This document shows, in pieces, positions 30,305 through 39,784 of a stretch of 64,000 bases of DNA. Origin of the DNA: Aliiroseovarius pelagivivens. Lineage in GTDB: Bacteria; Pseudomonadota; Alphaproteobacteria; Rhodobacterales; Rhodobacteraceae. Location of the stretch: contig NZ_OMOI01000002.1 in NCBI RefSeq assembly GCF_900302485.1, positions 620,001 to 684,000 on the forward strand, read 5' to 3'. The notes below the pieces were generated by a model. That model was not told where the DNA came from. It worked only from the letters and a program-made list of their open reading frames with translations, and ran no database searches. Made by a program: the position numbers and the translations under genes. Every line of letters starts with the position of its first letter. Position 1 is the stretch's first letter.

Positions 30305-30391
30305 GCCCAGATGGCGGAATTGGTAGACGCGCTAGCTTCAGGTGCTAGTGTCCGTATGGACGTGGAGGTTCGAGTCCTCTTCTGGGCACCA
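30305..30391 (+). tRNA. tRNA-Leu (anticodon CAG)
   Basis: The sequence folds as a class II tRNA: the acceptor GCCCAGA pairs with TCTGGGC, the D-arm region is GCGGAATTGGTAGACGC, the anticodon loop is CTTCAGGT with anticodon CAG, and a long variable arm TGTCCGTATGGACG precedes the T arm GGAGGTTCGAGTCCTCT. The CCA end is encoded (30389–30391). It closely resembles bacterial tRNA-Leu(CAG). Its 3' end is the left attachment site of the adjoining island and stays intact after insertion. Confidence 0.97.
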
Positions 30392-30396
30392 TTTTC
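30376..30396 (+). repeat. Left attachment site (attL) of the genomic island
   Basis: The last part of the tRNA-Leu gene and the next few bases (CCTCTTCTGGGCACCATTTT plus C, 21 bp) recur exactly at 39764–39784. Direct repeats of a tRNA 3' end with an integrase gene just inside mark a tyrosine-recombinase insertion. Confidence 0.92.
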
Positions 30397-30434
30397 CCTT
30401 GAAATGTAAGATAAAACAGCCACTTAGCTGGAAA

Positions 30435-30456
30435 TCGCTTCACATTCGCTTTACAA
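30435..30456 (+). repeat. Tandem 11-bp arm-like repeats, left end
   Basis: Two adjacent copies, TCGCTTCACAT (30435–30445) and TCGCTTTACAA (30446–30456), lie 39 bp inside attL. The same tandem pair occurs at the right end (39684–39705) in the same orientation, as expected for integrase arm-type binding sites. Confidence 0.6.
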
Positions 30457-30472
30457 CGGAGTGAACACGGCG

Positions 30473-31852
30473 ATGAGGCTCACAGTGTCTGTTAAGCATC
30501 TCAGAAAAGAAAACCGCTCCGGGATCTATCGCTACAGAAGGCGCGTTCCCGAGGATTTGCGGCTCGTTATTGGTAAGAGTTTTATCGATCAGACCCTGGA
30601 AACGACTGATGAGCTGGTTGCGGTCCAGAGGCGTGAAGAAATTCACCAAAAGGTTCAGCGGTTGTTTGCGGAGCTCCGTTCAAAGGGAACGGAAAAGCTC
30701 GAATATCAGACTGCAAAGGAAACCTTGAAGGACCTTGGGGTTTGGCAGGGAGCTCAATCAGACATGCAGCCCGTCCTATTGGATACTTCAACGCCGCCGG
30801 TGTTCGAGAAGATGACCCAAGCAATCCTCGCTGAAAGTGATCCCAAGAAGCAGCTCCTGCTTATGAAGGCAAAGTTCCAAGGAGTGAAACCTCCGGCCAT
30901 CCGCTTGAATGAGGCTGTAGAGGTTTACCTAGATGAGCGGGCAGGGGATAACTTTGAAAACCTCAAGAAGCAAACAACGCTAGCTGCACGGGCTCTCTGT
31001 GAAGCCAAAGGTGAAGACAATCCGGAGATCGCTGAGGTGACCTTTGATGACGCCTATAAGCTCCGTGATACACTGTTGGAGGCCGGGAAGGCTGCAGATA
31101 CAGTGAAGAAGCGCTTGGGGTCTCTGCGGGCGGTCTACAACGTGGCAAAGCGCAGATTGAACCTGCCACAATTGGTCAACCCCTTCGGAGGAATATCTCT
31201 ACCCAAAGGCCACAAGGAGGGCCCGGCGAAAGAGAAGCGCCAAGCGCTTACAGTAGATGAGATTAAGCTGTGTCAGCCGGAGATCAACAAAAGCAATGAA
31301 GACATCAAAGACCTCTGGACGCTGATGATCTACACGGGTGCGCGTCCATCTGAGCTCTGCCGTCTAAAATGGGAAGACGTGCGTTTGAAGGATGATGTCC
31401 CCCATATTCGGATCAACGCGGGACCTGGTAGGCCGATTAAGACCGAAGGCTCCGAGAGAAGTGTGCCTCTGGTAGGGAGGGGGTTAACAATCTTAACTCG
31501 CCGCAAAGAGAAGCTTATCGGAACCGCTCATTCAAAAATCGATGTAATCCCTCGGTATGCGCATAGAGGTGGACCGGGAAACGTCTCCGGGCTCATGATT
31601 AAAGCGATGAAGAAGGCGGATGTTTGGGTCACAATCAAGAAGGTACCATACTCAATTCGCCACTCCCATAAGGATTGGATGCGCAGAGTAGCTCGGGAAG
31701 AAATGACCAACCGCATTCATGGTCATGGGCGTAAGTCAGTTGCAAACGACTATGGTTCGGATGAGTTCTTGAGTGAGTTGGAGAAAATCATTTCTGAAGG
31801 GCTAGAACGATCAGGGCTACATCCCGGCATTGGAAACGCTATTGATAGCTAA
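30473..31852 (+). CDS. int: Tyrosine integrase of the tRNA-Leu island
   Basis: A 459-residue site-specific recombinase that integrates and excises the island. The N-terminal region (VKHLRKENRSGIYRYRRRVPEDLR) is of the arm-binding type seen in alphaproteobacterial phage-like integrases; a core-binding domain follows (about 145–235). Catalytic residues are all present: Arg291 in TGARPSELCRLKW, Lys323, Arg396-His397 in YSIRHSHKDW, His418 in IHGHGR, Tyr427 in NDYGS. I prefer the ATG at 30473 to the GTG at 30461 because the GGAG site overlaps that GTG. It is read away from the tRNA, immediately inside attL, and should be active. Confidence 0.93.
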   Translation: MRLTVSVKHLRKENRSGIYRYRRRVPEDLRLVIGKSFIDQTLETTDELVAVQRREEIHQKVQRLFAELRSKGTEKLEYQTAKETLKDLGVWQGAQSDMQPVLLDTSTPPVFEKMTQAILAESDPKKQLLLMKAKFQGVKPPAIRLNEAVEVYLDERAGDNFENLKKQTTLAARALCEAKGEDNPEIAEVTFDDAYKLRDTLLEAGKAADTVKKRLGSLRAVYNVAKRRLNLPQLVNPFGGISLPKGHKEGPAKEKRQALTVDEIKLCQPEINKSNEDIKDLWTLMIYTGARPSELCRLKWEDVRLKDDVPHIRINAGPGRPIKTEGSERSVPLVGRGLTILTRRKEKLIGTAHSKIDVIPRYAHRGGPGNVSGLMIKAMKKADVWVTIKKVPYSIRHSHKDWMRRVAREEMTNRIHGHGRKSVANDYGSDEFLSELEKIISEGLERSGLHPGIGNAIDS

Positions 31853-31900: not shown

Positions 31901-32884
31901 GTGAACCAACACAACCGCCCCGTAATGTTTTGCGATCTTTTTGTCTCAACGAACAAGCAACACATTCTGCCCGCACCGCTTAAAGACCTGTTAGGGGTTC
32001 TAGATACATATCGCCTCACCAACTCAACTGCGATGGATCGAGAAGGTGGACGCGTATCTTACTTTATATCTGACATCGTTTTTGATGACAGCAAGGATCT
32101 GGCCTTCCTTTATGTTGGAAAGCACGACGAGAACGGTAGCGATCCAGCTATTTCAACGAAACAATCGGCTGGAAGCTATGACACAGACATCATCGAGAAA
32201 AAAGTAAATCAAGGCAATGCTGCAGGTGGTCACATCGCAATTCACTTGGTTCCTAGAAATACAAAAGATGGTCACCTTTATTACACCGCCGTTGAAGCAT
32301 CCGAAGGATTAGGACGTTCAATCTGTCAGGCTCTGCTTCGATACGTTTTCAATGAGATATACGTCAACGATCCACAGGAAATGACCGCCAAGCGGACCAC
32401 TTCCACAGCAAAAAAAGCGGAACCATATCGCCCGTTATTCGAATTTCTCGGTATGCCTAAAGATTTCATTGAAGCAGATCTAGCCAAGGCTCACGGTGTC
32501 GATCTCAAAATCGTTCGGACAAAACCTACTGGAACGATGGGACACGCGGCTGCAAGTTTGCAGGCTGAAGAAGCTGTCGTACTCAAACCATCAAAAGAGC
32601 AAGGGTTCCCAAAAACTATTGATGGTATTAAAAACATTATCAAAGCAGTGCCTGGAAAGCTGTTGAGTGGCCGCTTCTCATACAAACTCAACGGCACCAC
32701 ACAACCAATCAAGTTTAAGATAGTTGATGGAACTGTGCTCTTTGATGAATTGTTAATCCAAAAAATGATCGTGGGCCCAATATCTTCCAAGATGGCAACC
32801 ATTACTCCCGACAGTAAGATACACTCAGAGTTTTCGGAACTGATGGCAAAAGTTCTAGTCGACAAAATAAACAGCTTGAAGTAG
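31901..32884 (+). CDS. Island protein of unknown function, first gene of a two-gene module
   Basis: A 327-residue soluble protein with a GTG start. I recognise no family. Visible features are FCDLFVSTNKQHILPAPL near the N-terminus, two acidic beta-like segments (VSYFISDIVFDD and LAFLYVGKHDENG), a G/A-rich stretch GNAAGGHIAIHLVPRN, the segment YYTAVEASEGLGRSICQALLRYVFNEIY, and a lysine-rich second half. No signal peptide, membrane segment or nucleotide motif is present. Codon use is AT-rich, unlike the host core. It is 27 bp upstream of a membrane-protein gene, so the two probably act together; a sensor plus membrane-effector defence pair is possible but unproven. Confidence 0.7.
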   Translation: MNQHNRPVMFCDLFVSTNKQHILPAPLKDLLGVLDTYRLTNSTAMDREGGRVSYFISDIVFDDSKDLAFLYVGKHDENGSDPAISTKQSAGSYDTDIIEKKVNQGNAAGGHIAIHLVPRNTKDGHLYYTAVEASEGLGRSICQALLRYVFNEIYVNDPQEMTAKRTTSTAKKAEPYRPLFEFLGMPKDFIEADLAKAHGVDLKIVRTKPTGTMGHAAASLQAEEAVVLKPSKEQGFPKTIDGIKNIIKAVPGKLLSGRFSYKLNGTTQPIKFKIVDGTVLFDELLIQKMIVGPISSKMATITPDSKIHSEFSELMAKVLVDKINSLK

Positions 32885-32911
32885 ACAGTTAAAAAGAACG
32901 AAAGAGAAACA

Positions 32912-33499
32912 TTGACTTGGTATGAACTAACTCGTTGGTATGCATATCGACGCATCGAACACACCTCGATGCGCTTCTATACTATTGTTTTTCCTTTATT
33001 TTTCGCAACTGTCCTAACGAGCGGAGTTGCTCTTCTTCCAGGTGAAATCACACTAACGGGTGATGCTGGCTTCGTTACAGGGATCATTGGCGTTATTTCA
33101 CTTCTACCAGGCTTCTATATAGCTTCTCTAGCAGCCGTAGCCACCTTTGGTGGAGAACACATGGATGAAACCATGCCCGCTCCAGCACCTGAGGTTTTTA
33201 TCAAAACTGCACAAACAGAAGGACCCGAAGAACTTACACGCAGAATGTTCTTATCTTACCTGTTTGGCTATCTAGCAATTACTAGCCTACTTTTGGTCGC
33301 AATTTGCTTTGTTGTTGGTATCTGCGCTCCTGCAATTGGAGCAGTAATTACCGGACATTGGCCAATACATGCCGCTACTATCAATAACTGCTTAGAAGTT
33401 AGTCTAGTTTTTTGTCTTTCCTTTGTTATGGGCAGCATTTTGGTCACAACTCTTCACGGGACATATTATCTTATGGAGCGCATTTTTCAGCCAAACTAG
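32912..33499 (+). CDS. Island membrane protein with four hydrophobic segments, second gene of the module
   Basis: A 195-residue protein with a TTG start (WYELTRWYAYRRIEHTS follows). Four strongly hydrophobic regions are visible at about residues 22–42, 52–80, 112–146 and 160–188; some are long enough to be double-spanning. A polar, acidic loop (GGEHMDETMPAPAPEVFIKTAQTEGPEELTRR, about 79–110) separates the two halves. No enzymatic motif is seen. Its spacing to the upstream gene and shared AT-rich composition suggest a two-gene cassette. It could be a pore-forming or scaffolding membrane effector; this is only inference. Confidence 0.7.
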   Translation: MTWYELTRWYAYRRIEHTSMRFYTIVFPLFFATVLTSGVALLPGEITLTGDAGFVTGIIGVISLLPGFYIASLAAVATFGGEHMDETMPAPAPEVFIKTAQTEGPEELTRRMFLSYLFGYLAITSLLLVAICFVVGICAPAIGAVITGHWPIHAATINNCLEVSLVFCLSFVMGSILVTTLHGTYYLMERIFQPN

Positions 33500-34053: not shown

Positions 34054-34629
34054 ATGACTGGGACAATAGTAGGGTACGCGCGAGTATCGACCGCCAAGCA
34101 GAACGAGAAGACACAGGTCCATAGCCTTGAACAGAACGGTGCAACGAGACTGTTCATTGACAAAGCGAGTGGAAAGTCCCGAGACAAACGTCCGGAGCTG
34201 GAGAGAGCACTGGACTGGGTGCGGGACGGGGACGTGTTGATGGTGACCCGTTTGGACCGCCTAGCTCGGTCAGTTCTCGACCTCCATGAAATCGCCAAGG
34301 AGCTAGAGCGGAAAGAAGTGGGGCTGCGGGTCATTGAACAAAGCATCGACACAACGACCCCACAGGGACGGCTCATGTTCACTATGCTGGGAGCCATTGC
34401 TGAGTTCGAGACCGCGCTCAGGGCAGAGCGGCAGGAAGAAGGCATAGCACTGGCAAAGGCAGAAGGGCGGTTCAACGGAAGACCCGTAGAGATTGATCAC
34501 GAGGCGGTTAAGAAGGCGCAGGAAGAGGGGAAGAAACCCACCCAGATTGCGGAGGAGCTCGGCATCGCTCGGTCGTCGGTTTACCGGGTCCTGGCGAAGA
34601 TCAAAGAGAGTGAGGCCAGCCAGCCCTGA
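34054..34629 (+). CDS. Serine recombinase (resolvase/invertase family)
   Basis: A 191-residue small serine recombinase. The catalytic domain starts IVGYARVSTAKQNEKTQ with the nucleophile Ser12, includes GDVLMVTRLDRLARSVLDLHEIAKEL and the long E-helix GRLMFTMLGAIAEFETALRAERQEEGI. The C-terminal helix-turn-helix is KKPTQIAEELGIARSSVYRVLAKIKE. It is complete and of the Tn3-resolvase/Pin size. On an element that already has a tyrosine integrase, a second recombinase may resolve dimers or invert a segment; no flanking transposon ends were found. Confidence 0.93.
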   Translation: MTGTIVGYARVSTAKQNEKTQVHSLEQNGATRLFIDKASGKSRDKRPELERALDWVRDGDVLMVTRLDRLARSVLDLHEIAKELERKEVGLRVIEQSIDTTTPQGRLMFTMLGAIAEFETALRAERQEEGIALAKAEGRFNGRPVEIDHEAVKKAQEEGKKPTQIAEELGIARSSVYRVLAKIKESEASQP

Positions 34630-34927
34630 CCCACCCCAATAGTTTGCTTGTGGCTCGCCCCCGGCGGGCGGGGTTCATCATACCCGTGCGTAGTTGTGTG
34701 TATCAGTTTCGCGCGGGAAAGGCAGAAAAGCTGCGAGCGGATTGGCGTCTCGTAGCCTCTGGGGCCCTGCTATCAGACGACCGCCGTTTACCTACCTCCT
34801 GAGCCATAAAAACAAGGCTCCCGAGCGAACTCGTGAGGAACCTCAGTCTGTCCCAACCGCCATTAAGGTTGCACCTATAAAGGGAGGAGCGCTTCGATCT
34901 CCCCCGAGTAAACATAGGACTTCCCAC
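34630..34927. other. Spacer between recombinase and RNase HI genes
   Basis: About 300 bp. Near the left end the G/C-rich inverted sequence GCCCCCGGCGGGC (about 34658–34670) could be a weak terminator of the recombinase transcript. The frame open upstream of RNase HI here lacks a ribosome-binding site and does not look like a conserved N-terminal extension. The right end holds a phage-promoter-like element. Confidence 0.45.
34862..34887 (+). promoter_or_regulatory. Phage RNA polymerase promoter-like element upstream of rnhA, copy 3
   Basis: ATTAAGGTTGC followed by ACCTATAAAGGGAGG. It shares ATTxxGGTTGC and xCCTATA with the element at 33821 and ends like the T3 promoter (AAAGGGAGA). It would start a transcript near 34882, about 45 nt before the rnhA ATG, a sensible leader length. 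Confidence 0.4.
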
Positions 34928-35428
34928 ATGAACAACATGCAACAACCTGCTTCGGCGGAACAATCCCACATTGCCTACACAGATGGCGCTTGCAGCGGCA
35001 ATCCCGGCCCTGGCGCTTGGGCCCATTTCACCCAAAACCCCGATGGAACCTTCACCGAAGCCTCAGGGTTCCTCAGCGACACGACCAACCAACGAGCAGA
35101 ACTCCTCGCCGCCATCAAGGCCCTGGAGGAGACCCCTGAAGCTGCACTCGTCCATATCCTGAGCGACAGCGCTTATGTGGTGAACAGTGCCACACAATGG
35201 CTTGAGGGGTGGAAGGTGAAGAATTGGCGGAATGCCAAGAAGAAGCCCGTCAAGAACCGTGACCTTTGGGAGCAACTGGACGCCTTGATGGCCACCCGCG
35301 AGGTCACCTTCACGCACATCCCTGGGCATTCTGGCATTTCTGGCAACGAACGCGTGGACGCTCTTGCGAAGCAGACTGTCACCGACAGGGCAGGCATCGG
35401 ACCATTCACTTTCACAATCGAACAATGA
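34928..35428 (+). CDS. rnhA: Ribonuclease HI carried by the island
   Basis: A 166-residue RNase HI that cuts the RNA strand of RNA–DNA hybrids. The four acidic catalytic residues are in place: Asp in AYTDGACSGNPGPGAW, Glu in TTNQRAELLAAIKAL, Asp in ILSDSAYVVNSATQWLEGWK, and Asp in GNERVDALAKQ; the basic protrusion (WRNAKKKPVKNRDLW) and the His loop HIPGHSGISGNE are present. I start it at the ATG at 34928 (MNNMQQPAS). A chromosomal rnhA is expected elsewhere in the host, so this is likely an extra copy used in replication of the element. Confidence 0.92.
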   Translation: MNNMQQPASAEQSHIAYTDGACSGNPGPGAWAHFTQNPDGTFTEASGFLSDTTNQRAELLAAIKALEETPEAALVHILSDSAYVVNSATQWLEGWKVKNWRNAKKKPVKNRDLWEQLDALMATREVTFTHIPGHSGISGNERVDALAKQTVTDRAGIGPFTFTIEQ

Positions 35429-35441
35429 GAAGCGTCGAGAC

Positions 35442-36039
35442 ATGTACAGCGCAACACCGACCTCCAAAGATGTAGCTTACCTACTCGATCACCCCGACAA
35501 GGCGGAGAAGTTTGACGCTCACTTTGGTGAGGGGAAGGCAGCTCAATACCTGCAAGCTCACACCAGCGCGGAGCGGCCTCAAGAAGCCCTTGAAGGTTAC
35601 CGTCACTTCCGGCCCCCGGAGCGTTGTGGATGAGGAGCTCCGCAAGCTGAACTACGGCTTCACTGGTCCGGATCGAAAGATTGGGGCAATTACCCTCTCC
35701 TCGGAGCAATTCCAGGAGTGGTCCCGCCTCATGGGAACCGTGAAGATCGGCGCGAAGAACCTTGAGGCTCAGCTCGAAGCTGCAATGCAGACCGAACGCT
35801 ACGACCTTGGCCGCGAGAAGGTCCCTGACGGGATCACCTCCCTGGCTAAAAGCCATCGAGTCGAGATGTTGCGCAACATCATCACCGCCTACAAACAGAA
35901 GTCCCGAGCGGCCCACTTTGAGAGCAACCCGGAGCTGTACGAGGCGTGGGTGGAGTACGAGCGGTACGAGGCAGAGGCAGAGGCAGAACGCGGGATTGCC
36001 CAGAAGGGTGACCGTGAGAACCTGCTGCTGAAGTTCTAG
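35442..36039 (+). pseudogene. Frameshifted phage-type protein (structural/polyvalent C-terminal domain)
   Basis: Two overlapping frames together look like one protein. From the ATG at 35442, MYSATPTSKDVAYLLDHPDKA and FDAHFGEGKAAQYL read well in one frame, which stops near 35633. From about 35590 the +1 frame reads VTVTSGPRSVVDEELRKLNY, then ITLSSEQFQEWSRLMG and a charged helical tail to the TAG at 36039. The combined order (FG.GxAA..L, then a segment with LTxEQ..xxxRLxG, then helices) reminds me of C-terminal extensions of phage virion-internal or polyvalent proteins. Either a mutation broke the gene or a +1 frameshift is used. The downstream frame alone has only a TTG start. Confidence 0.55.
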
Positions 36040-36066
36040 CCGAAGCCAAAATCACAACTGAAACCT

Positions 36067-36090
36067 AGGGGACCCTTCGGGGTCCTCTTT
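36067..36090 (+). terminator. Terminator after the rnhA–virion-remnant genes
   Basis: Stem AGGGGACCC (36067–36075) and GGGTCCTCT (36080–36088, one G-T pair) around a TTCG tetraloop, followed by a short T run. It lies 28 bp after the preceding stop. Confidence 0.65.
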
Positions 36091-36116
36091 CAATTCAACA
36101 AGCAAGGAGAATGGCA

Positions 36117-37010
36117 ATGTCCTTCTTTGAACAATTGGGGGTAGAGCGCGGGGAGACCCGAAAGGAAGCGTTTGACCGCCTTTCCCTTCAGCATGAGGAG
36201 GGCCTGGGACAACGAGCTGAGAACATCCGCACCGTCGTGTTATCCTCGCTCTCAGTGGAGCCTCTGGTCTTCCAGCACCGAGAGGATGGACCAGGGGATA
36301 TGTGGGGCCACGAGCTGCACCTGGACAACCTGAAGCAAGCGATCAAGCGTGAACCGGGCCACAGGCTGGACCCCATCGTAATCTGGCAATGTGGGCCCGA
36401 TTTCATCGTCATTGATGGTCACTTTCGGGTTGAGGCATACCGCCAATACGCACGGGATAAGAAAACCCAGCCGAAGCGCTTCAAGGTGCCCTGTCAGGTG
36501 TTTCACGGGGGACCTCTTGAGGCACTGGATCGCTCAATCACACTCAACAAGAAAGTGTCCTCCCCTCTGACCAAAACGGAGCTCAGCAATGCAGCTTGGC
36601 AACGGATTTGTTTGAGCTGGGATGGTGAAGGGTGGAGCACTTCCAAGAAGCAGTTAATCGCCCTTGGATTGGTCGCAGACAACACCATCGCTAGGATGCG
36701 GCGAACCTTCATGAAGCTGCTGAAGTCCGGAAAGGTGACCACAGAGGATTGCCACGGGATGACCTGGCAGGACGCGGAAGCGGCCCTGAAAGGGATCGAC
36801 GGTGAGGATGTGAAAGATTGGTGGGATGATGATGAACGCTGGGATGCGGGAGTCCAGGAGCTAGCTGACAGGCTCTCTCGCACGTTTGGCTCGATCTTGC
36901 GCGAGGCTCCTTTGTTCACTCTAGCAGCGTTTGAACGGTATTCGCCGCAGTTGGTCGCTGCCTGGGAAGAGTACATGCTGGAAGAACGGGAGCTCTGTGA
37001 GGACTTCTAG
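36117..37010 (+). CDS. ParB/Srx-domain protein of phage type
   Basis: A 297-residue protein. Residues about 60–120 carry a ParB-N/Srx-like core: DPIVIWQCGPDFIVIDGHFRVEAYRQYA (read in parts: DPIVIWQ, FIVIDGHFRVEAYRQY), corresponding to the nucleotide-binding DGHHR-type motif of ParB nucleases. A helical region with WSTSKKQLIALGLVADNTIARMRR (about 178–202) resembles a helix-turn-helix. Phages and plasmids carry such proteins as partition, nuclease or regulatory factors. Start choice: an AAGGAG site 7 nt before the ATG at 36117 favours it over the ATG at 36111. Confidence 0.75.
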   Translation: MSFFEQLGVERGETRKEAFDRLSLQHEEGLGQRAENIRTVVLSSLSVEPLVFQHREDGPGDMWGHELHLDNLKQAIKREPGHRLDPIVIWQCGPDFIVIDGHFRVEAYRQYARDKKTQPKRFKVPCQVFHGGPLEALDRSITLNKKVSSPLTKTELSNAAWQRICLSWDGEGWSTSKKQLIALGLVADNTIARMRRTFMKLLKSGKVTTEDCHGMTWQDAEAALKGIDGEDVKDWWDDDERWDAGVQELADRLSRTFGSILREAPLFTLAAFERYSPQLVAAWEEYMLEERELCEDF

Positions 37011-37563: not shown

Positions 37564-38025
37564 TCAAAACCACTTACGCTTCAGTTTGCGCCTCTGGTTG
37601 CGTACAACTCTTGCAAGGTCATGCGCCTGGCTTCTCATCTGAATAGCGCGGATTTCGTCCTTTTTTCGTTCGCGCCCTCCGAACTCACCTCCAGTAAGAA
37701 CACTATCCAAGCGGTTTACTTCAGTTTCCACAGCCTTCCCGGCATCGCCATCGAACATGTCACTACACATCTTCCCGATGTCGTGCATTGCGGGCACAAT
37801 TTGCACCTTAAGTTCTTCGTCTTCATCCGAACCGTCACGAAGCCAGTACAGCCCCCCGAGCTCTGAAACTCGATCAATCTGCGCAACAATGCGATGAACA
37901 TCTTGTGTGCGCTCCTCCTCAATGAAGGAACTGTGAGAGACGCGAGAGTCAAACCAAACTGTGCCCAGTTTAGCGAGGATAAAGCCTACCCCCGCAGCGA
38001 ATGCATCAACTAAAAATGAGAGCAA
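37564..38025 (-). CDS. Small membrane-anchored protein, third gene of the STAS/GHKL module
   Basis: A 153-residue protein of unknown function. A TTG start gives an N-terminal hydrophobic segment (LVDAFAAGVGFILAKLGTVWF, about 5–25), probably a membrane anchor, followed by a charged, helical cytosolic part (VHRIVAQIDRVSELGGLYWLRDG, VNRLDSVLTGGEF, RSQAHDLARVVRNQRRKLKRKWF) that ends strongly basic. It lies 12 bp behind the STAS-like gene, so all three minus-strand genes form an operon. A membrane effector or localisation partner is conceivable; there is no direct evidence. Confidence 0.65.
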   Translation of the reverse strand: MLSFLVDAFAAGVGFILAKLGTVWFDSRVSHSSFIEEERTQDVHRIVAQIDRVSELGGLYWLRDGSDEDEELKVQIVPAMHDIGKMCSDMFDGDAGKAVETEVNRLDSVLTGGEFGGRERKKDEIRAIQMRSQAHDLARVVRNQRRKLKRKWF

Positions 38026-38037
38026 CTAGATTCCAGC

Positions 38038-38385
38038 CTATCCTGCTATTTGCCCGCCCTTAGCCTTGTTTGCGGCGGCCTGGTCGATAAATTCCCAGAT
38101 GCGGGTCACATATCTTTGATACCCTTTCGAGGCGTGAAACCTCAAGAGTTCACGAATCATGTCTGGCGACATTGAAGCCCGAACAAGACCACCAAATGCC
38201 TCCTCTAAAAACGATGATGGATAGCCGGGCGCACCGTCTAAGTCGATAATGACCTCCTCACCCGCCTTCAGATGTGGAAGGAGGAAGTCCTCTCTAAATC
38301 TAGTACCGTTTCCATCACCGTCGACAAGATAGCGCCCTGCCGGGAACGGATGAAAGTCTTCGATGACATTGATTTGTTTGGTCAT
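38038..38385 (-). CDS. STAS-like small protein (DUF4325 type)
   Basis: A 115-residue protein. The arrangement AGRYLVDGDGNGTRFREDFLLPHL, then EEVIIDLDGAPGYPSSFLEEAFGGLVR, is the pattern of the STAS-like DUF4325 family: a G.RFR..L..L helix, a beta strand ending in Asp, and a P.SFL.EAFG.L segment that corresponds to the phosphorylatable DSSG loop region of anti-anti-sigma factors. It overlaps the upstream ATPase gene by 4 bp (ATGA), so the two are translationally coupled and probably bind each other. Its serines in PSSF are candidate control sites. Confidence 0.8.
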   Translation of the reverse strand: MTKQINVIEDFHPFPAGRYLVDGDGNGTRFREDFLLPHLKAGEEVIIDLDGAPGYPSSFLEEAFGGLVRASMSPDMIRELLRFHASKGYQRYVTRIWEFIDQAAANKAKGGQIAG

Positions 38386-39485
38386 GACGCTTGTCTCTCA
38401 GCCTGGATTTCCACCGGCAGGCTCCATTCAATTAGTGTCCCGCCAATGTGGCGAGGAAGTGAAAATAACTCCACCTCCTGGTTAGGAGTATATATGATGC
38501 CTCCCGCGCCACTCAATATACGTACTCTTCCTTTGCCGTAGCCCTCTACTGGCGAGATCACGTCCGTTAGTCCCTGACCTCTGCCCATAGCCGATCCTTT
38601 TGATGTCCTGCTTACCTCCAGTGCGGCAGCAATCATACGCGCATGATCCTTAACCAATGATGACATTATCGAGCTGACCCCAAGAATCGAACGGACACGC
38701 TCTGCAAGATGCCACCGATTCAACGTCGCAGGTATGCCTACACCTTGATCAAATACAACTACACTTACCTCTGCCCTTGAAGCAGAGAACACACCGGTTG
38801 CCCACCACGGTTTACCGTCCAAGGGTGAGAAATTGTAACCTTCATCCTCTGGATAAGCGTGGTCAACTGCGTTTCCGGTCGCTTCGATCATCGCTTCGTA
38901 TAGCTCTGGACCTTGCTCCAGTACATTCGCAACCTGCTCTAGTCGCGTTCGGATTCTTTGTACCCTTGCCGGGTCTAGTTTATTGCAGGCAATCATCGGG
39001 AGAACTGTTACTTCCTCGTGCCTCCACTCGTCAGGCCAGCGAACGCCAAGCTCAATGCCGATTAGATCAAAGAAACCCAGTTGTTCGAGGCGCATAACAA
39101 CATGAGCAGCCCAATCCCCTAGTCGGGATGCAATCAATCGAACCTTGGTAGGGTGCCTAGACATTATACGGTCAATTTCAGCGTTCAAGACTAGCATTGC
39201 AGCCGCAGACGCCCATTTAGTCTTGCTGAAATCAATCTGGATTACCGATTGTCGCCCTTCCGGATTGTTGCCGATTTTTTTAATTTCCTGAATGCAGGCA
39301 AGCGTATCGGCACACTCACTCGACAGATTGAATGCCTCGGGCATAGAGATCAGATAACGCTCACCGGAATACAGATAATTTCTGCGCCTCAGGTCACTGC
39401 GCCTGCGTTTTTTCCGCAAGCGCTCTAGGCGCTCTTTCTGTGAAAATTTTAGCTTTTTCATAAACTTATCTTTTCGAAATTCCAT
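38382..39485 (-). CDS. STAS-like/GHKL ATPase fusion protein, first gene of the module
   Basis: A 367-residue protein. The first 40 residues are very basic (KKLKFSQKERLERLRKKRRRSDLRRR), perhaps for nucleic-acid binding. Residues about 78–150 read like a STAS-type domain (SVIQIDFSKTKWASAAAMLVLNAEI). A GHKL (HATPase_c) domain follows: N box EATGNAVDHAY (Glu201, Asn205, Asp208), G1 box VVFDQGVGIP (Asp246), G2 box GSAMGRGQGLTDVI, and the closing strand GTLIEWSLP. It resembles anti-sigma kinases such as SpoIIAB/RsbW fused to a STAS-like partner. The start is uncertain: the ATG at 39485 or at 39461. It lies next to attR and opposes the other island genes. Confidence 0.8.
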   Translation of the reverse strand: MEFRKDKFMKKLKFSQKERLERLRKKRRRSDLRRRNYLYSGERYLISMPEAFNLSSECADTLACIQEIKKIGNNPEGRQSVIQIDFSKTKWASAAAMLVLNAEIDRIMSRHPTKVRLIASRLGDWAAHVVMRLEQLGFFDLIGIELGVRWPDEWRHEEVTVLPMIACNKLDPARVQRIRTRLEQVANVLEQGPELYEAMIEATGNAVDHAYPEDEGYNFSPLDGKPWWATGVFSASRAEVSVVVFDQGVGIPATLNRWHLAERVRSILGVSSIMSSLVKDHARMIAAALEVSRTSKGSAMGRGQGLTDVISPVEGYGKGRVRILSGAGGIIYTPNQEVELFSLPRHIGGTLIEWSLPVEIQAERQAS

Positions 39486-39763
39486 GCACGGCTTCAGTCC
39501 GGCTTGGTGCGGTATTCGAAATACGCTGTATGAAGCGCGATTTCCAGACCATTTGTTGAACTATGGCGAGAATTGAAGGCCCAGCTACGAGCCAGTTGTA
39601 TAGTGGGACAAATTATAGGGGTGGTATGGGTTGGTGCAGCTTGCACTGGGATTGCGAAACAAATTTTGGACGCTCCGAGAAGATCGCTTCACTATCGCTT
39701 CACATTTCACAAAAAACAGTCCAGTATGGCCTTGATAATAAAGCGATAATTTCGGGCTAGATG
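39486..39763. other. Right-end region of the island
   Basis: Contains the presumed promoter of the STAS/GHKL operon, then the right arm-like repeats. A 65-codon plus-strand frame (39563–39760) has no ribosome-binding site, no recognisable product, and ends in attR, so I do not call it a gene. Confidence 0.5.
39684..39705 (+). repeat. Tandem 11-bp arm-like repeats, right end
   Basis: TCGCTTCACTA (39684–39694) and TCGCTTCACAT (39695–39705) stand head to tail, 58 bp inside attR. The second copy is identical to the first copy at the left end (30435–30445). Confidence 0.6.
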
Positions 39764-39784
39764 CCTCTTCTGGGCACCATTTTC
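39764..39784 (+). repeat. Right attachment site (attR) of the genomic island
   Basis: An exact 21-bp copy of the tRNA-Leu 3' end and following bases (see 30376–30396). It defines the right boundary; excision would rejoin tRNA-Leu with the sequence leading to the TadE gene. Confidence 0.92.

Follow-up and report, generated by a model that had tools for sequence, protein, structure and literature searches.

We identified a three-gene operon, here called K, S and M, which is probably a VapKSC-type switch, mobile and self-contained, with a membrane protein as its effector. VapKSC is described as an anti-phage system made of a kinase, a STAS antitoxin and a PIN RNase (Chambers et al., EMBO J 2026; PMC13373217). 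The operon is encoded on the minus strand at the attR end of an integrative island in the window (the whole stretch of DNA that was analysed, 64,000 nucleotides). The gene order, the overlap of K with S, the conservation of the triplet and its mobility were all observed directly. The operon has the following features.

38382..39485, minus strand: K, an open reading frame of 367 aa with a basic N-terminal extension, a predicted STAS region and a GHKL kinase-type ATPase, VapK-like
38038..38385, minus strand: S, 115 aa, a DUF4325 STAS-like protein, VapS-like, with a 4-bp overlap with K
38212..38217, minus strand: codons of Ser57 and Ser58 of S, motif PSSFLEEAFGGL
37564..38025, minus strand: M, 153 aa, TTG start, 12 bp after S, a predicted effector in which a single membrane helix at the N-terminus precedes a cytoplasmic domain bearing A..YW and TGG.F motifs

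The three reading frames and the 4-bp K/S overlap lie where the initial annotation had placed them. S was assigned to DUF4325 in Pfam (PF14213, 50.3 bits against a cut-off of 23, E 2e-13), which agreed with its earlier reading as a small protein of this type. Window K matched HATPase_c at 16.7 bits, under the Pfam cut-off of 26.4, and had no STAS match of its own in Pfam; no HTH match was obtained for K or S in the same library. In PHROGs, K matched phrog_3364 (E 2e-42) and S matched phrog_5816, both of which are families of unknown function. Window M had no match in Pfam, PADLOC, NCBIfam or PHROGs, and no PADLOC (2023) model matched any of the three window proteins.

The domains of K, which had been annotated as a STAS and GHKL fusion with a very basic N-terminus, became clear through its relatives. 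Comparison of K with a VapK profile using hhalign gave 268 collinear columns (E 8.8e-15). K against a single VapK gave E 6.4e-10 and an integrase control gave E 0.91, and HMM cross-matches also linked K and VapK. Because K matches the VapK profile, its N-terminal half can be read as a STAS domain. No match was found between K and S by profile, and single-sequence PDB searches with K and S returned nothing useful. E201, N205 and H209 of the N-box of K and its glycine motifs were invariant or nearly so in the family, as were most positions of the DQGVGIPAT and GRGQGL motifs. The basic N-terminus was real and conserved, as an extension of at least 25 aa was present in 31 of the 36 K-family members, the window's included, with a median of 39 aa and a Lys+Arg content of 36%. 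This extension suggests nucleic-acid binding and perhaps a different trigger. The trigger of K may differ because the aromatic residue that contacts ssDNA in CapK and VapK could not be placed in the K alignment; its column was sought by way of four non-Escherichia VapKs and was not fixable in K. In most of the aligned K homologues the start corresponds to the second Met of the frame (window 39461). This is the likely true start, and the 8 residues before it may not be real.

The relationship of S was assessed using a profile of 64 S sequences. The best match among 177,635 PDB sequences was Escherichia VapS 9z7o (E 0.0037); a 5-sequence S profile against the same VapS gave E 1. The similarity of S to VapS is thus weak, although significant. 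Ser57 of S aligned to residue 66 of the 9z7o chain, which would be VapS Ser48 if the chain carries an 18-residue tag (the chain has 134 residues and the numbering of the paper ends at 116). The VapS serine aligned to window Ser57 would then be the phospho-site Ser48. Serine was found at the Ser57 position in 61 of 71 S proteins and at the Ser58 position in 68 of the 71. The VapS of Deinococcus is, like window S, a PF14213 protein. By profile comparison, K and S are homologous to VapK and VapS, K over its full length.

M had been described as carrying a single N-terminal membrane anchor, and one hydrophobic segment was indeed present at its start. An iterated search from window M recovered 61 of 71 candidates (69 ORFs downstream of S and two database proteins) as a family with a median length of 158 aa and a hydrophobic helix from about residue 7. 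Lys and Arg were commoner after the helix than before it in all 61 proteins, suggesting an N-out/C-in topology, and a second hydrophobic segment was detected in two of them. Recurring motifs were [YFH]W (48/61) and [TS]GG (30/61), and no conserved catalytic-looking residues were found in the family. When 39 members were compared with Pfam, PHROGs and PADLOC, no family matched more than one member and no PIN family was among the matches; the sole PADLOC match was that of one member to LeoBC (E 5e-4). When the M profile was searched against the protein database, 13 proteins including the window's own were recovered, none of which had a Pfam domain. Against the PDB the best matches of this profile were designed helical maquettes, and these were taken as chance.

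Conservation of the triplet was quantified at 116 distinct K-S loci with enough sequence left to hold a third gene. Identical S copies were removed (18) and the window locus was not counted. Loci set aside beforehand were two with K at a contig end, one with S at a contig end, four with K cut off (all S-M) and four without a K match (two S-M, one with another membrane protein and one with neither). Candidates from loci L001-L101 and two database proteins served to train the M model, which matched 60 of 64 K-S loci among later viral loci that were not identical to training copies. An M homologue was the third gene at 105 of the 116 loci, so that what had been proposed as a candidate module is a conserved gene triplet carried on mobile elements. 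At a further 8 loci this place was taken by another predicted membrane protein, small and carrying a strongly hydrophobic segment; these proteins may have been swapped in as effectors or may be diverged forms of M. Neither was found at three loci. At one of these, from Candidatus Entotheonella (L019, 7020-9301), an IS3-like element has inserted between S and a displaced M and the S frame stops early; another has a short S frame (L017), and the third has a 151-aa ORF whose hydrophobic segment is weaker (L151).

Several unusual arrangements were seen among the loci. One viral contig carries two K-S-M cassettes, the first cut at the contig end (L157, 1-4806). On Vibrio and Acinetobacter plasmids (L058, L059 and L060) the genes after S encode small membrane proteins unrecognised by the M model, and L058 has no K match. 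At L061 (2980-4261) and L081 (866-2216) a short GHKL-like protein of 174 and 186 aa, respectively, lacking the STAS half, precedes S and M.

M could instead be a membrane anchor or sensor that holds S or K, with the freed partner acting elsewhere. A single helix followed by a long cytoplasmic domain with no catalytic pattern would suit this role, and in the Rex-like Butters pair a membrane protein is reported to sequester a cytosolic effector (PMC12894663). However, the third gene of VapKSC is the toxin and its S protein the antitoxin (PMC13373217), and unrecognised membrane proteins fill the M place at the 8 loci, which leaves this role for M rather unlikely. Control of a sigma factor by an ordinary partner switch is scarcely credible. 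The best PDB matches of the K profile, five sequences at E<=0.1, were all SpoIIAB (anti-sigma F factor) or RsbW, and the SpoIIAB-SpoIIAA and RsbW-RsbV pairs resemble K and S in joining a GHKL kinase to a STAS-type substrate. In contrast to those pairs no sigma factor was seen with K-S-M. None was found among ten island proteins scanned, where the HTH of the island resolvase cross-matched Sigma70_r4_2 under the cut-off, and the third gene was a predicted membrane protein at 113 of the 116 loci, in line with the earlier statement that these partner-switch proteins stand alone.

The triplet was widely distributed. K had 118 protein-database matches including the window's own, and scans with K found 34 loci among genome contigs and a further 16 among viral contigs. 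The scan with S found 248 viral relatives, of which 80 were kept. A single-sequence scan of genome contigs with K found no relative, and K relatives of two other clades searched against named phages detected Marinobacter phage AS1 only, which carries the triplet as AS1_41-40-39. Carriers were temperate phages, plasmids and islands. Plasmid examples came from Vibrio alfacsensis, from Acinetobacter, where K is truncated beside an IS3, and from Novosphingobium, where the M gene lacks annotation. In Francisella phage KIRK, Fhv_0046 (a match to AS1), Fhv_0047 (DUF4325) and Fhv_0048 (TM) are reported as consecutive genes (PMC7924643). The titles of K loci named Alpha- and Gammaproteobacteria, Desulfobacteraceae/Desulfococcaceae, Entotheonella, Opitutales, Akkermansia and Leptospira.

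Genome sets were used to measure frequency. M was found in 11 of 385 genomes of the class, 8 of which also had a strong K; the other three had S-M without a K match, S-M at a contig end, and a borderline match (E 5e-4) without S. Strong K matches occurred in 10 of the 385 genomes, and four weak ones (E 6e-5 to 4e-4) were left uncounted. Two of the ten had no M match, one with the locus at a contig end (G732) and one with a missed ORF containing a helix and the TGG.F motif (G643). Among 30 DUF4325 loci classified in 398 genomes of the phylum (probably Pseudomonadota), seven were K-S-M, the window's own included, one was S-M with a short GHKL protein and three were VapKSC. DUF4325 was also found within long ORFs, about 335-533 aa in length (L064, L066, L067, L074-L077, L079, L083 and L085), six of which had no match to the K, VapK or S profiles. 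These ten long frames are a different, uncharacterised lineage.

The island that carries the window operon is 9.4 kb long and is sited in a tRNA-Leu gene.

30305..30391, plus strand: tRNA-Leu(CAG), the integration site
30376..30396, plus strand: attL core, 21 bp, an exact repeat of the tRNA-Leu 3' end
30461..31852, plus strand: tyrosine integrase of the island
39764..39784, plus strand: attR core, 21 bp; the first codon of the K ORF is 279 bp away

The exact 21-bp repeat confirmed that the operon sits at the attR end, as did the near-empty site of the genus-mate G751, in which about 350 bp separate the tRNA from the right flank and one core copy is present. Other genus-mates hold inserts of about 2.3 kb (G752), 9.8 kb (G747) and 17.8 kb (G760) at the same site, and these differing inserts indicate that it is an integration hotspot. 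Of 21 genomes in the genus, only that of the window had K. The initial annotation called the element phage-like. An integrase, an RNase H and a ParB-like protein of phage type were found, but the ten island proteins scanned gave no convincing capsid, tail or terminase match, and integrative island is therefore the better name. A serine resolvase/invertase, the RNase H, which has an N-terminal extension, and the ParB-like gene occupy 34054-37010 on the plus strand. A second defence candidate is present on the same island at 31901-33499 (plus strand), where PADLOC recognised the pair PDC-M53A (E 7e-10) and PDC-M53B (E 2e-40; phrog_8257). Near the two island ends (30434-30455 and 39683-39704) the unit ATCGCTTCAC recurs in direct orientation, the copies being 86% alike, and these repeats are possibly arm sites of the integrase.

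In viral contigs repressor genes were among the neighbours of the module. An ORF was present within 400 bp upstream of K at 60 of 70 viral loci with distinct K, and it matched the repressor family phrog_4 at 18 of the 60 and Peptidase_S24 at 17 of the 60, two sets that may overlap. Of 55 viral contigs with a length of 25 kb or more, 16 had S no further than 2.5 kb from an end, compared to 6.6 expected; these 55 may include identical copies and their ends are only partly real phage ends. A promoter scan found 2 sites compared to 2.7 expected.

These neighbours raise the idea that K-S-M regulates lysogeny or induction of its carrier phage by sensing DNA damage, and the reported response of CapK to DNA damage (PMC13373217) would agree with it. 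However, S has no HTH match, unlike CapS with its wHTH, and the start of window K lies 279 bp from attR. In E. coli D3, where the module proteins are WP_042005405.1, WP_042005410.1 and WP_119743262.1, about 6.7 kb separate the module from CI, and no CI-type gene lies beside K at the plasmid loci viewed. We consider regulation of lysogeny highly improbable. The prophage position beside repressors, together with the membrane location predicted for M, would also fit a constitutive superinfection-exclusion protein whose level or activity K and S merely tune. This too is improbable, if slightly less so, as a constitutive protein would have no need of an ATPase and a phospho-switch and the module is also found on plasmids and on the non-phage island of the window.

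In E. coli the module was detected in 20 of 5,426 genomes by similarity to one lineage. Four of the 20 loci were viewed and all four lie between gpA (P2 replication endonuclease) and gpQ (portal gene), an interval of P2 reported to be an antiviral hotspot that houses old and tin (PMC9122126, PMC9519451). As this copy sits in P2-like prophages, the module is directly testable in E. coli. The logic first proposed for the operon, an ATPase/kinase, a phosphorylatable switch and a membrane protein, fits the homology to VapKSC and the P2 hotspot position of the four E. coli loci. No PADLOC 2023 model matched E. coli K, S or M, and none matched the 36 K-family members; PADLOC probably also includes a three-gene system directed against P1. 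That system comes from the P2 hotspot, is described as having 'no clear predicted domain' and protects against P1 (PMC9122126); going by the description alone, it could in principle be a K-S-M.

A VapKSC-type switch with a membrane-protein effector would operate as follows. At rest, unphosphorylated S would bind M and keep it silent. An infection or DNA-damage signal would turn K on, the trigger probably being a nucleic acid bound by K, as CapK is described as activated by ssDNA and as phosphorylating a STAS serine (PMC13373217). By homology, K would phosphorylate S at Ser57 or Ser58 in SSFLEEAFGG and phosphorylated S would release M. Freed M, held by its inner-membrane anchor with the C-terminal domain in the cytoplasm, may then disturb the membrane and stop growth, so that infection is aborted; the outcome could be abortive infection or stress arrest. 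Membrane disturbance is suggested by the topology of M and by the 8 loci with other membrane proteins, and RexB is a reported precedent for such an effector (PMC12894663). The toxin role of M, the trigger and the role in defence are suggested by anatomy only.

No description of K-S-M was among the matches listed for the open-access journal papers searched, two of which mention DUF4325. The earlier view that the combination has no described function was half true, because the K-S pair belongs with VapK-VapS of the 2026 VapKSC system; M was undescribed in the searches made. If the proposal is correct, what was described in 2026 as one kinase/antitoxin/RNase system would become a platform in which the same sensor-switch pair drives two or more classes of effector, PIN RNases and membrane proteins among them. 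It would also offer a function for DUF4325, phrog_3364 and the new membrane family.

VapKSC is one of the closest known systems. VapKSC-type loci were found with a VapS fragment on a Deinococcus plasmid and in three genomes (G210, G068 and G071). The Deinococcus locus has a STAS domain in VapK, a PF14213 VapS and a PIN third gene by Pfam, and the third genes of G210, G068 and G071 matched the Deinococcus PIN protein with phmmer E values of 4e-22, 1e-14 and 5e-6; the PIN model used for the census and for classifying loci was built from these four VapC-like proteins themselves. K-S-M shares with VapKSC the order kinase, STAS antitoxin and effector. Profile comparison links K to VapK and S to VapS, and the serine region of S aligns with that of VapS. 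VapKSC is reported to protect about 100-fold (about 2-log) against phage, protection is abolished by VapS S48A, and the biochemistry of VapK was beyond the reach of the original authors (PMC13373217). The third gene differs, being a PIN RNase in VapKSC and a membrane-family M in K-S-M. K also differs by its basic N-terminal extension, which is absent from three of the four VapKs compared; the ORF of the fourth begins further upstream, where the start may be wrongly placed. Strict membership of VapKSC was rejected as the third protein is not a PIN toxin.

CapK-CapS likewise combines a STAS-GHKL kinase with a STAS substrate and is described as adjoining immune genes (PMC13373217). An HTH is present at the N-terminus of CapK and a wHTH at the C-terminus of CapS, whereas K and S have no Pfam HTH match, and membership of CapKS was rejected on this basis. 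CapKS represses an adjacent immune operon. The gene that follows S is M, a possible immune gene, at 105 of the 116 loci.

RexB is polytopic and M has one helix, and lambda rexAB adjoins cI. No Rex-named family was among the matches listed for the K-S-M proteins, in libraries that may lack Rex models. RexAB and RexABpp resemble K-S-M as prophage-borne pairs of a cytosolic sensor and a membrane effector and differ in that no STAS/GHKL switch is described for them (PMC12894663). Whether K-S-M is a widespread, unnamed anti-phage system is evenly balanced in our judgement. In such a system a nucleic-acid-sensing GHKL kinase would phosphorylate a STAS antitoxin and thereby release an inner-membrane toxin of a new family. 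The system would then be a phospho-switched equivalent of RexAB, and the branch with membrane effectors in a VapK/VapS platform whose effectors can be exchanged.
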